From positions 1 to 64,000 of the forward strand of contig JAUICL010000001.1 in NCBI GenBank assembly GCA_030427905.1: a DNA stretch of 64,000 bases, written 5' to 3'. Shown here piece after piece: positions 55,884 to 59,771 of this stretch. Within the stretch, counting starts at the first letter, position 1, and each line of letters opens with the position of its first letter. The notes under the pieces were generated by a model, which worked only from the letters and a program-made list of their open reading frames with translations, was not told the origin of the DNA and did not search any database. This DNA comes from Bacteroidia bacterium. Lineage in GTDB: Bacteria > Bacteroidota > Bacteroidia > Flavobacteriales_D > Cryomorphaceae. A program made the position numbers and the translations under genes.

Positions 55884-56540
55884 ATACTTTCTTCTATTTC
55901 TTACTGACTTATTGAGATGTTCTTGAACTGAAGGCTCAGAATTTGGCAAACACATATATAAACGAGAATACATAGTCAGCTCACCATATAAAAGATGGCT
56001 TTGATTGGCTCACAGCTTGCCAAGTTGAAAATCGCCAATCCTTGTTGGATGTCGTGAGCCAACTTTCGGCCTTAATTTTATTCTCTTAGAAACTCAGAAA
56101 TAAGCGAAAGTCCACCGCACCCATGTTTGAGCTCAGGTATCGGAAGCTCTGCTTCCGCTAATACCGTTTGCGAGTTTGCCCTAGTTGAATCGGCTCCTTC
56201 CGTGGACCACTATTTCATTGCTGACCTGCTTCTTGAGCCGTGAATCAACATCAATTTATTAACTGAAATAATTCGTTCTTTCCCTTTTTACTTTTTGAGC
56301 AGAAGTTTAGTACGTTTCACGAAGTTGTTGATTATTCAACGGGGTTGGGTAAGGTGCTGTAGTGTTTTCGAGAGTTTCAAGAAATAAAATTACAGCCCTG
56401 ATCTTTTGTTCCTTTTGCATCCATCGGCCGCCATAGGCTTGCCGACGGCGATGCAAGGCAAAAGGAAGTTGAAAAGACAAGCTTTTGCCAGTAATGTAGA
56501 TCGTTGCCGTTATCTGGATCATCGCCCCCTTTAGTAGGAG
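55884..56540. other. Gene-free region between tRNA-Leu and the 120-bp repeats
   Basis: No convincing gene on either strand. It holds scattered hairpins: TTGGCTCAC (56005-56013) with GTGAGCCAA (56054-56062), and GGAAGC/GCTTCC near 56151-56165. Short open frames on the minus strand (for example 56307-56558) have no protein-like features. Possibly decayed mobile or repetitive DNA, but no transposase or terminal repeats are visible. Confidence 0.5.
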
Positions 56541-56849
56541 TCTTTCAAGAAAAGCCAACGCCTACTCCACAGGCGAAGCTTTTTTCATTCCCCAAATCCG
56601 CTCAAGCACCCATTCAATGATTACCCCGAAATAAATTTCGGGGTGATCCCAAGTGGGGAGGCTTTCAAGAAAAGCCAACGCCTCCTCCACAGGCGAAGCT
56701 TTTTTCATTCCCCAAATCCGCTCAAGCGAACCTTGAATGATTACCCCGAAATAAATTTCGGGGTGATCCCAAGTGGGGAGGCTTTCAAGAAAAGCCAACG
56801 CCTCCTCCACAGGCGAAGCTTTTTTCATTCCCCAAATCCGCTCAAGCGA
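56541..56849. repeat. 120-bp tandem repeat (two full copies and one partial)
   Basis: Copies at 56541-56660, 56661-56780 and 56781-56849, with an exact 120-base period. Copies 2 and 3 are identical over 69 bases; copy 1 differs at a few sites. Each full unit holds three small hairpins: GGCTTTcaagaAAAGCC, CGCC..GGCG and the perfect ACCCCGAAAT-AA-ATTTCGGGGT. As the period is a multiple of three, a false 40-residue protein repeat appears on the minus strand, but copy 1 has an in-frame TAG, arguing against coding. Confidence 0.9.
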
Positions 56850-56878
56850 GCTTGGCGGATTTGGGGAATGAAAAAAGC
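56818..56878. repeat. Long inverted repeat closing the tandem array
   Basis: 24 bases at 56818-56841 are perfectly inverted at 56855-56878, with CAAGC/GCTTG in the 13-base spacer also complementary. The left arm is part of repeat copy 3; the right arm is a reversed fragment of the same unit, fused to the tRNA-Gly terminator. Confidence 0.9.
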
Positions 56879-56902
56879 CATCGATAATCATCGATGGCTT
56901 TT
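56871..56902 (-). terminator. Terminator of tRNA-Gly
   Basis: AAAAGCCATCGAT (56873-56885) pairs with ATCGATGGCTTTT (56890-56902), 13 perfect pairs and a 4-base loop. Read on the minus strand it follows the tRNA 3' end by four bases and runs into six T residues. Confidence 0.85.
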
Positions 56903-56906
56903 CTTG

Positions 56907-56979
56907 AGCGGGAGACGGGATTCGAACCCGCGACCCCAACCTTGGCAAGGTTGTGCTCTACCAGCTGAGCTACTCTCGC
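56907..56979 (-). tRNA. tRNA-Gly(GCC)
   Basis: A 73-base tRNA with D-arm GCTC/GAGC, anticodon stem CAACC/GGTTG around TTGCCAA (anticodon GCC), T-loop TTCGAAT and discriminator T. The acceptor arm GCGAGAG/CTCCCGC has one A-C mismatch at pair 4-69. CCA is not encoded. Its own upstream sequence lacks a TAnnTTTG box; the nearest good promoter is at 57103-57131, beyond a decayed tRNA copy. Confidence 0.93.
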
Positions 56980-57026
56980 ATATGTCAAATACTTTGCTTC
57001 GTGCAATTTTTGACTATTTCTCCTTT

Positions 57027-57091
57027 GCTCGATTCTCTCAGCGACCCTCCCGAACGCTTTCGGGATGCTCTTAAAGCTGAGCTACTCTCGC
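57027..57091 (-). pseudogene. Decayed tRNA-Gly copy
   Basis: Minus-strand GCGAGAGTAGCTCAGCT at the 5' end is identical to the intact tRNA-Gly, with D-arm GCTC/GAGC and the junction GGGTCGC also kept. The anticodon arm is replaced by TCCCGAAAGCGTTCGGGA and the T-arm and 3' acceptor strand are lost. It starts 12 bases after a full promoter, where a tRNA should start. Confidence 0.75.
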
Positions 57092-57102
57092 AATAAGGTT
57101 GG

Positions 57103-57131
57103 CAAAATTAAGTATAAAATTGAATTTGCAA
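57103..57131 (-). promoter_or_regulatory. tRNA-Gly promoter
   Basis: On the minus strand: TTG (57129-57131), an 18-base spacer and TAATTTTG (57103-57110). Full consensus. Transcription would begin next to the decayed tRNA copy and read through to the intact tRNA-Gly about 110 bases on. Confidence 0.8.
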
Positions 57132-57140
57132 AACAGAATT

Positions 57141-59771
57141 TTAGTTGCCTGAAATCTTTTTGATCTCGTTCAACTTCATCAAGGCTTCTACAGGTGTCAG
57201 AGAATTGATATCAATATTAGTGATCTCATCTCTAATCTGCTCAAGTATAGGATCATCGAGCTGAAAAAAGCTCAATTGCATATCGGAGTCCAGCTCTGGC
57301 TTGGAACTTTTCTTTGGCCTGTCGAGCACATCGCCTGAATGCGATTTTTCGAGTCGCTTCATAATTTCTTGCGCTCTGCCAACTACCACGGGCGGCATTC
57401 CTGCTAGCTGAGCCACATGGATACCAAAACTGTGCTCACTTCCACCCTTCTTCAATTTTCTCAAAAAGATGATTTTATCCTGATACTCTTTCACACTGAC
57501 ATTAAAATTCTGGATACGCTCAAAGCGCGATTCCATTTCATTCAATTCGTGGTAGTGAGTGGCAAACAAAGTCTTAGCCTTGTTTTGCTTTTGCTCGTGG
57601 ATGTATTCAGTAATGGCCCACGCAATTGAGATTCCGTCGTAAGTACTCGTACCACGGCCAATCTCATCGAGCAATACCAAACTCCGATCCGATAGATTGT
57701 TCAAAATACTGGCCGTTTCATTCATTTCTACCATAAAGGTGGACTCGCCCGATGAAATATTGTCACTGGCACCCACGCGAGTAAATACCTTATCGACTAC
57801 GCCGATTCGCGCCGCCGAAGCAGGCACAAAACACCCCATCTGAGCTAGGATCACGATTAGCGCAGTTTGGCGGAGAAGAGCCGACTTACCTGCCATATTT
57901 GGACCGGTAATCATCATAATCTGCTGTGTAGAATCGTCAAGGAAAACGTCATTGGCCACGTAGGACTCCCCAATAGGCAGCTGGTGTTCAATAACCGGAT
58001 GTCGACCATCTTTGATATCCAAAATTTTGGAATCGTCGATCACGGGGCGCACGTAGTTCATTTCTTCTGCCAAGCGAGCAAAAGATAAAAGGCAATCGAG
58101 TTGTGCTACCCGACGAGCATTGATTTGAATTGGTTCTACATACGATCCCAAACTCGACACGAGATCCTGATAAATCTCCGTTTCAAGCGTGAGAATTCGA
58201 TCTTCTGCACCAAGGATTTTTTGCTCATATACTTTCAGCTCTTCAGTGACGTAACGCTCCGCGCTCACCAGCGTTTGCTTTCTGACCCAATCTTCTGGCA
58301 CCTTGTCCTTGTGCGTATTTCGGACTTCGAGGTAGTAACCAAAGACGTTGTTATAAGCAATCTTCAAAGTAGAAATCCCCGTGCGTTCAATCTCGCGTTG
58401 TTGAATCTCGAGCAAACTAGATTTGCCATCGGCTTTGATAGACCGCAAATCATCCAGCTCTTCATTGACCCCCTTGCTAATGACACCACCTTTATTGAGC
58501 TGCACAGGAGCTTCATCATCTATTTCACGACCGATTCGGTCGATTACCTTCTTGCAAGGATTCAATTGCTCAGCAATCCCTTCCAGAGTAGTGTTTCCAG
58601 AATTAGACAGAATTTCCTGAATAGGTACAAGAGCTTTGAGGGCTCTGGCTAACTGTAGCAGCTCCCTTGGATTGATTCGACCCACAGAGACTTTTGAGAT
58701 CAATCGCTCTACATCCCCTATTTGTTCGATGTGGCTGCCAACTTGATCGGCCACATCGTGCTTATCGAGAAAGTATGAAACAGCGTCGTGTCGTCGAGCA
58801 ATCTGGTCTCGATCCTTGAGCGGAAGGAGAAGCCACCGCTTTAGAAGCCTGCTACCCATTGGCGAAATGGTGCGATCGATAATTTGAAGAAGCGACGTAG
58901 CCCCATCTCCTTGAGCACTGACCAATTCAAGATTACGAATGGTAAACCGGTCGAGCCATACGTAGCGATCTTCTTCAATTCTTCTGAGATTGCTGATGTG
59001 GTCTAGCTTCTCGTGGTGTGTATCGCTAAGGTATTGCAATACTGCTCCAGCGGCAATCACGCCTAGACTCATGTTCTCGACTCCAAATCCTTTTAACGAT
59101 TTGGTCTTAAATTGACCCAAGAGTTTCTCATGGGCAAAATCTTCCGTAAACACCCAGTCATCGAGCCTGAAAGTGTGAAACTTCCCTCCAAAAGCATCTT
59201 GAAAATGGTTCTCGAAATGTCTTTGAAACAGGACTTCACTGGGATGAAAGCTTTGGAGAAGTTTATCAATGTAGGGAAGGCTTCCTTCTGCTACAAGATA
59301 CTCTCCAGTAGAGATGTCGAGTAGTGAGAGTCCTGCTCGTTTCTCTCCAAAGTGCACTGCGGCAAGAAAATTGTTCTTTTTGTGGTCGAGCACTTGGTCA
59401 TTGTACGCCACACCTGGGGTCACTAACTCCGTAACTCCCCTTTTAACGATGCTCTTCGTCATTTTTGGGTCCTCCAGCTGATCGCAAATGGCAACGCGAT
59501 ACCCAGCCCGGACCAATTTAGGAAGATATACATCGATGGAATGATGCGGAAAGCCCGCCAATTCGACGTGTGAAGCAGCCCCATTCTTCCTTTTGGAAAG
59601 TACAATTCCCAACACTTGCGCTGCCTTTACAGCATCTTCGCCAAACGTTTCATAAAAATCTCCAACGCGAAACAACAATAAGGCATCTGGGTACTTTGCC
59701 TTTATGCCATAATACTGCGTCATCAACGGAGTTTCCTTCGCCGCTTTCTTCTTTTTCGTTTTTGCCTGCAA
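57141..59771 (-). CDS. mutS: DNA mismatch repair protein MutS
   Basis: An 876-residue MutS1 protein that binds mismatches and recruits MutL. The N-terminal mismatch-binding segment [16 protein letters not shown] contains the Phe-x-Glu motif (FYE). The ATPase has Walker [15 protein letters not shown] (about residue 615), Walker [16 protein letters not shown] and a His switch FATHYHEL. The start is a TTG at 59771, giving a Lys-rich N-terminus ([15 protein letters not shown]); the first ATG (59723) would remove it. Confidence 0.96.

Follow-up and report, generated by a model that had tools for sequence, protein, structure and literature searches.

How a promoter came to face a broken copy of tRNA-Gly, with the intact gene lying beyond it, is the question raised by a locus in the 64,000-nucleotide stretch of DNA analysed here (C5:1-64000, called the window). 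The features of this locus, all on the minus strand, are listed in Table 1. The Bacteroidota promoter consensus is TTG / TAnnTTTG, and a pair of this type was read upstream of the copy; a sigma-70 promoter scan had no entry on the minus strand of the locus. The box is placed 11 nt before the truncated copy, and the intact tRNA-Gly starts 112 nt beyond the start of that copy. Upstream of the intact gene (56979) no full TAnnTTTG was found on reading the sequence, TATTTGACATAT having TTTG alone in common with it. The inverted repeat and T run on the 3′ side of the gene are absent from the list of predicted terminators. The end of mutS also precedes tRNA-Gly in the family relatives, as judged by eye. 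Judging from the relatives of its MutS, the organism is probably one of the Bacteroidota. At 56537-56896, still 3′ of tRNA-Gly, the window has three tandem repeats of 120 nt, in which the terminator region recurs in inverted orientation, and in two genomes (G004 and G005) an inverted copy of that region likewise lies 3′ of tRNA-Gly (by eye).

Table 1. Features of the tRNA-Gly locus, in window coordinates.
Feature	Position	Strand	Details and basis
mutS, upstream neighbour	57141-59771	-	TIGR01070, 910 bits (cut-off 641.7)
Bacteroidota-type promoter-like pair	57103-57133	-	TTTTG 57133-57129, 18-nt gap, TAATTTTG 57110-57103; sequence reading
Truncated tRNA-Gly copy	57041-57091 (3′ end ~57041)	-	nt 1-17 identical, anticodon arm swapped
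Predicted hairpin in leader	57037-57081	-	copied CTCAGC (57081-57076) with new GCTGAG (57042-57037); predicted fold
Palindrome TCCCGAAAGCGTTCGGGA, 18 nt	57048-57065	-	replaces anticodon arm of the copy; pattern search
Second predicted leader hairpin, GTCAAA..TTTGAC	56984-57014	-	directly 5′ of intact tRNA-Gly; predicted fold
Intact tRNA-Gly(GCC)	56906/56907-56979	-	ARAGORN and Rfam, 65.7 bits
Terminator-like inverted repeat, then T run	56873-56902	-	3′ of tRNA-Gly; repeat search and sequence reading

Starting at 57091, the copy is identical to the intact gene over 17 nt, GCGAGAGTAGCTCAGCT; when the comparison is started one base earlier and run over 27 nt, 24 of the 27 positions agree (89%). 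Most of what a preliminary description of the locus had reported was recovered, namely a promoter facing a sequence that begins exactly like tRNA-Gly for 17 bases, a substituted anticodon arm (the palindrome of Table 1), a piece of the variable region (GGGTCGC), the absence of a T-arm, of which none was found, and an intact gene without a box of its own. The D-arm, said there to be kept, is so in its stem alone: GCTC/GAGC is preserved, but the GG of the D-loop is gone, with TTTA instead. On covariance scoring of both copies, as had been proposed, the intact gene was recognised with the score given in Table 1, and the upstream copy (57027-57091) had no Rfam RF00005 match even at E 10. The copy thus stays below the Rfam gathering score that we required of a functional tRNA, and ARAGORN reported no tRNA there either. 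No match to the group I intron family RF00028 was found at the window locus, and other Rfam families gave weak matches alone in the leader, far under their gathering scores. Compared with its own upstream 400 nt, tRNA-Gly scores 37, against an upstream maximum of 32 in 1056 control pairings of other tRNAs and flanks from the same genome. The palindrome pattern is present at one place in the window, and its mean number in 100 window shuffles is 0.

Several candidate origins of the inserted sequence were rejected. No phage match was found for it, and the one plasmid match, 43 nt at 84% identity to a cadA gene of Bacillaceae (E 0.03), was taken as chance. A BLAST search of the whole region matched elsewhere in the genome over the tRNA part alone, which argues against a repeat present at other places. 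Between the copy and the intact tRNA-Gly, a few codons resembling the end of a GIY-YIG ORF were seen by eye, too short a stretch to be called a remnant.

The 121-nt leader is predicted to fold better than all 200 of its shuffles (z -5.2). For base pairing between copy and intact tRNA, the predicted value is 0.016, and 0.073 without the hairpin, for a 5-95% range of 0.003-0.440 with shuffled middles; these values come from a program that misses the cloverleaf, even when the tRNA is folded alone (acceptor pairing 0.041). RNA folding therefore does not amount to a proof of sequestration.

The genus is represented by one genome in our set, so the family (8 genomes, own included) was used as the nearest comparison. 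None of the 7 relatives has a second tRNA-Gly copy: flank self-matches reach at most 22, versus 37 in the window (downstream flank of 170-700 nt). In 5 of the 7, a single tRNA-Gly follows the box by 11-12 nt. A purely rule-based count gives a TTTG box 11-12 nt upstream in 6 of the 7, from which G005 was excluded, as another box is present about 30 nt further up and this genome has two possible boxes; the tRNA-Gly leader of G004 is 94 nt long. As the copy stands at 11 nt from its box, the spacing of the tRNA in the five relatives, the broken copy likely occupies the ancestral place of the tRNA, and the intact gene has likely been displaced.

Other tRNA genes of the same genome (which has 33 ARAGORN calls, one of them untyped, versus 34 Rfam tRNAs over the cut-off) also have partial copies of themselves nearby. 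Upstream copies showing the same arm swap as at tRNA-Gly were found at tRNA-Pro, where the self-copy score is 60, and at tRNA-Ala, where the score of 24 is inside the control tail; the latter copy, and those upstream of tRNA-Arg(TCT) and of one tRNA-Met, were recognised by eye. Downstream, tRNA-Asn scores 65 and tRNA-Met, Arg(TCG) and Cys 34 each; the downstream control reaches a maximum of 40, once in 1056, with 99.9% at 30, and we regard the copies scoring 34 as suggestive. At tRNA-Pro, Met, Arg(TCG) and Cys, as at tRNA-Gly, the copies are found without an ORF. In the rRNA spacer after tRNA-Ile/tRNA-Ala, a tRNA-like sequence (L149 ~560-632, own C9:560-632) shows D and T arms but has TCCGAAGCATTTCGGA instead of an anticodon arm; its Rfam tRNA score is 23.6 bits, below the cut-off of 29.

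The genome contains 17 occurrences of the palindrome core, CCCGAANNNNTTCGGG, and a single one of the reversed pattern. Of the 17, four begin at most 250 nt from a tRNA and four at most 510 nt from a GIY-YIG match, with one belonging to both groups, so that 7 are near a tRNA or a GIY-YIG match and 10 near neither (7 of the 9 own GIY-YIG matches were used for the distances, the two in long frames being omitted). The own genome has the exact 16-nt palindrome, CCCGAAAGCGTTCGGG, at two places only, the window copy and the broken copy of tRNA-Ala (C5:318412), and this tRNA-Ala copy starts 180 nt from a GIY-YIG match.

Across the order, the pattern GCGAGAGTAGCT, 70-100 nt, GCGAGAGTAGCTCAG was found in 12 genomes out of 399, own included, which belong to 7 of the 70 genera, and its reversed control in 0. 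The downstream half of the pattern corresponds to an intact-looking tRNA-Gly in 9 of these genomes and to another partial copy in two (G168, G331); in the last, G378, it is masked. The upstream copies differ in their inner part. Some have D-loop palindromes (G036, G395), others an anticodon arm that is lengthened or swapped (G132, G331, G392 and the window), and others a common structured body (G168, G193, G195, G203, G325). An ORF-sized insert at tRNA-Gly, searched with exact ends over 311-371 nt, was found in 1 genome of 399. Partial tRNA-Gly copies near tRNA-Gly were also seen in named Bacteroidota outside the sampled genomes (L033, Prolixibacteraceae; L046, Draconibacterium; L035, L061 and L102). 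In the tRNA-Leu region 3′ of tRNA-Gly of G195 (L116 1792-1989), a match to the group I intron family RF00028 scored 51.3 bits, for a cut-off of 50.

A separate class of upstream copies, R1, has a structured body in common, which was modelled from 6 sequences; 7 of its 27 predicted pairs are changed on both sides, and the covariation term is only -0.42. At E 1e-4 the R1 model, of about 80 nt, had 13 matches, spread over 8 of 299 genomes; 5 of them were sequences used to build the model. Nine R1 loci (from L257-L269) were examined. Eight of them are followed, at a distance of 18-96 nt, by a tRNA for Gly, Arg, Met or His, and six of these eight elements begin at, or at most 2 nt from, the first base of that tRNA; in L265, an R1 locus, ARAGORN found no tRNA. 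The own genome has one R1 match at E 1e-4, at C8:236563-236637, which is the tRNA-Arg(TCT) sequence used in model building. There is no R1 match at 57091, and we rejected the window copy as a member of R1.

One of the genomes with the tRNA-Gly pattern, G168, holds a fuller form of the arrangement: its tRNA-Gly leader consists of a tRNA 5′ half with a hairpin, followed by a GIY-YIG ORF (PF01541) and by the intact tRNA-Gly, and its tRNA-Leu locus is built alike. The small GIY-YIG ORFs of this genome are 80 and 94 aa long. A search with the G168 ORF gave matches in 99 of 249 genomes of the order at E 1e-8. Of 30 loci fetched, among the more numerous matches listed for this query, which is itself tRNA-linked, 23 have an ARAGORN tRNA call at a distance of at most 200 nt, always on the same strand; in three of the 23 (L246, L250, L253) the nearest call is a hairpin-bearing copy, not a normal tRNA. 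The family list of small GIY-YIG loci, for which 23 of 30 fetched loci were used and 7 with open frames above 200 aa (UvrC-like lengths) omitted, contains 9 with a tRNA within 200 nt and 1 at 228 nt, and in the other 13 no ARAGORN tRNA is present in the fetched stretch. Tandem pairs of GIY-YIG ORFs about 300-400 nt apart were seen in L241 and in G016, G057, G162, G193 and G217, which suggests cassette arrays.

Is the neighbouring tRNA copied on the far side of these ORFs? Of 27 loci, 19 have their own adjacent tRNA as the best match there, and 8 do not. The sum in a permutation test was 1081, compared to 524 +/- 47, with a maximum of 766 in 20000. Two untyped loci (L246, L253) had been dropped from this set, and loci on an already counted contig merged; the rank and permutation test replaced a control inflated by related and unmasked intact tRNAs (2 of 29 loci at the 99% level, 79). 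The own tRNA-Ala locus is among the 8 failures, with a rank of 20 out of 24 after the ORF; its copy lies upstream of the tRNA. Partial self-copies were detected in 25 of 40 tRNA contexts adjacent to a GIY-YIG ORF versus 9 of 129 others (Fisher p 1.6e-12), the latter set including loci fetched for holding a copy, which works against the contrast. They were detected in 8 of 83 contexts in mutS loci of named Bacteroidota, and in 29 of 2330 for the cross-control. Upstream copies begin at nt 1-3 of the tRNA in all 15 cases (nt 1 for the window copy), and 23 of the 30 downstream copies end in its last 3 nt. Of the 45 copies, 20 have a TCC/CCC palindrome inside them or no more than 50 nt away, compared to 7 of 345 control segments, each 130 nt long; because of overlap between a few loci, the 45 include cases in which one locus contributes two contexts (L033, L046, L061, L236). 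The window copy has such a TCC..GGA-type palindrome at 57048-57065, a trait that is frequent in the class but not universal.

Our observations thus cover the anatomy of the locus, the single tRNA of the relatives, the recurrence of the arrangement and its association with GIY-YIG ORFs and with palindromes. We propose that the broken copy is the left-hand tRNA part of a GIY-YIG cassette, of a tRNA-invading class common in the order, that it was left behind without an ORF and that it has turned into a structured leader; we give this reading a probability of about 0.56. A full cassette would consist of a partial tRNA copy and a small GIY-YIG ORF beside a complete tRNA. Presumably in the sequence given here, the cassette (tRNA part, palindrome and GIY-YIG ORF) would enter or duplicate at a tRNA gene, the nuclease causing this insertion or duplication, and the complete tRNA would be retained. 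The surplus partial tRNAs, which may be prone to misfolding or half processing, would be tolerated once disarmed, in the window by the palindrome put at the former anticodon arm. The locus would once have held the ORF, or been copied with its help; the ORF would have been lost later, none being left at tRNA-Gly. A primary transcript would span the copy and the intact tRNA-Gly, with the copied 5′ strand sequestered in its own hairpin, and the intact tRNA would be released by ordinary end processing, the leader being removed when the tRNA 5′ end is made.

Some of the results speak against this proposal. No GIY-YIG ORF lies between or beside the copy and the intact tRNA in the window, which contains none of the 9 PF01541 matches of the genome. 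At tRNA-Gly, the ORF-sized insert is rarer than the short form (1 versus 12 genomes of 399). In addition to the 13 of 23 loci of the family list without a tRNA in the stretch, two own GIY-YIG genes are away from tRNAs (L189 and L195, own C8:207640 and C8:197369); they were found among repeats with the same CCCGAA..TTCGGG palindromes. Finally, the far-side match fails in 8 of 27 loci, the own tRNA-Ala locus included.

The preliminary description had seen the locus as a tandem tRNA duplication whose promoter-proximal copy decayed and now acts as a leader. In its plain form, a tRNA-Gly duplication by slippage or unequal exchange, followed by decay of that copy and entry of a palindrome, dispenses with any nuclease and needs no further component to account for the 112-nt direct repeat. 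The order does contain tRNA genes in tandem (tRNA-Val x2, L236), and most short forms at tRNA-Gly have no ORF at the spacing searched. The family relatives, each of which has a single tRNA-Gly at this locus, nevertheless speak against decay of an ancestral pair, and so do the identity, which ends sharply at the palindrome-replaced arm and does not fade, and the recurrence of copies at other tRNAs. The excess of self-copies beside GIY-YIG ORFs (25/40 versus 9/129) and the tie to palindromes are left unexplained by it, and we consider plain duplication rather unlikely. The two readings are not fully exclusive, since cassettes of this kind may themselves originate in a tandem duplication of the DNA.

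As for the leader, the copy is promoter-proximal and would be part of it if the sole visible promoter is used; the transcript itself is presumed. A selected structured RNA, either a tRNA-like decoy or a processing signal controlling the output of tRNA-Gly, would fit the fold of z -5.2 and the existence of R1, a separate class with a structured body preceding Gly, Arg, Met and His tRNAs. The window copy, however, falls outside R1, the computed sequestration is weak, being inside the range of the shuffles, and at least 5 of the 7 family relatives lack the leader, which is therefore not generally needed. We hold such a role to be improbable. Direct repeats of a tRNA end with a restored intact tRNA are typical of tRNA-targeting integrases, and the locus might also be the attachment-site scar of an excised island of this type. 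Here, however, the repeat is the 5′ end of the tRNA from nt 1, the two starts are merely 112 nt apart, and the insert has no phage match and just the short plasmid match mentioned above, which makes a scar of this kind very improbable.

The cassette reading has counterparts among known systems. Intronless homing by free-standing nucleases is treated in PMC3984707, and SegB is the subject of PMC13096335, as far as the accessible parts of these texts go. Free-standing homing endonucleases such as those of the T4 Seg family likewise have a small GIY-YIG-type nuclease gene (PF01541) beside a conserved target; by analogy, the cassette would work most like one of these. It differs in residing on bacterial chromosomes, at many tRNA genes, and in having, at 19 of 27 loci, a partial tRNA copy across the ORF. 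Bacterial tRNA genes are also invaded by group I introns, which may carry a nuclease gene, according to the accessible part of PMC3984707. In contrast to them, the window copy has no intron match, and the tRNA stays whole beside the insert and is not spliced. Palindromic repeat elements inserted in genes are another known case, for example the Rickettsia palindromic elements. The likeness resides in short interspersed palindromes within RNA-like genes, whereas here the palindrome occupies an arm or a loop of a tRNA copy that is superfluous to begin with. Integrative elements that target tRNA genes duplicate the tRNA end and restore an intact gene; here, the direct repeat is of the 5′ end, the insert is of about 110 nt or one small ORF, and no integrase lies between. 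In the open-access literature searched, subscription papers being outside the search, we recognised no paper on this arrangement of tRNA copy and GIY-YIG ORF, and the accessible parts of PMC1564403 and PMC3984707 do not mention it.

More generally, we put forward as a possibility, to which we give somewhat less than even odds, that these loci belong to a family of tRNA-parasitic cassettes. A minimal GIY-YIG nuclease would cut or rearrange a tRNA gene, leaving beside itself a complete tRNA and a surplus partial one, disarmed by a mobile palindrome in the anticodon, D, variable or T arm. The tRNA-Gly leader would be an ORF-less scar of such a cassette, and the hairpins of surplus copies would prevent the duplicated strand from interfering with the genuine tRNA. 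It is easy to dismiss partial tRNA copies next to tRNA genes as pseudogenes; those described here follow rules, with a kept end, a swapped arm and a neighbouring ORF. If the proposal is true, tRNA annotation can err at such places, as ARAGORN reports some hairpin-bearing copies as odd tRNAs, and a nuclease with a predicted target becomes directly testable. The copies would then be the marks of a small and widespread selfish element whose targets are essential tRNA genes for many isoacceptors.
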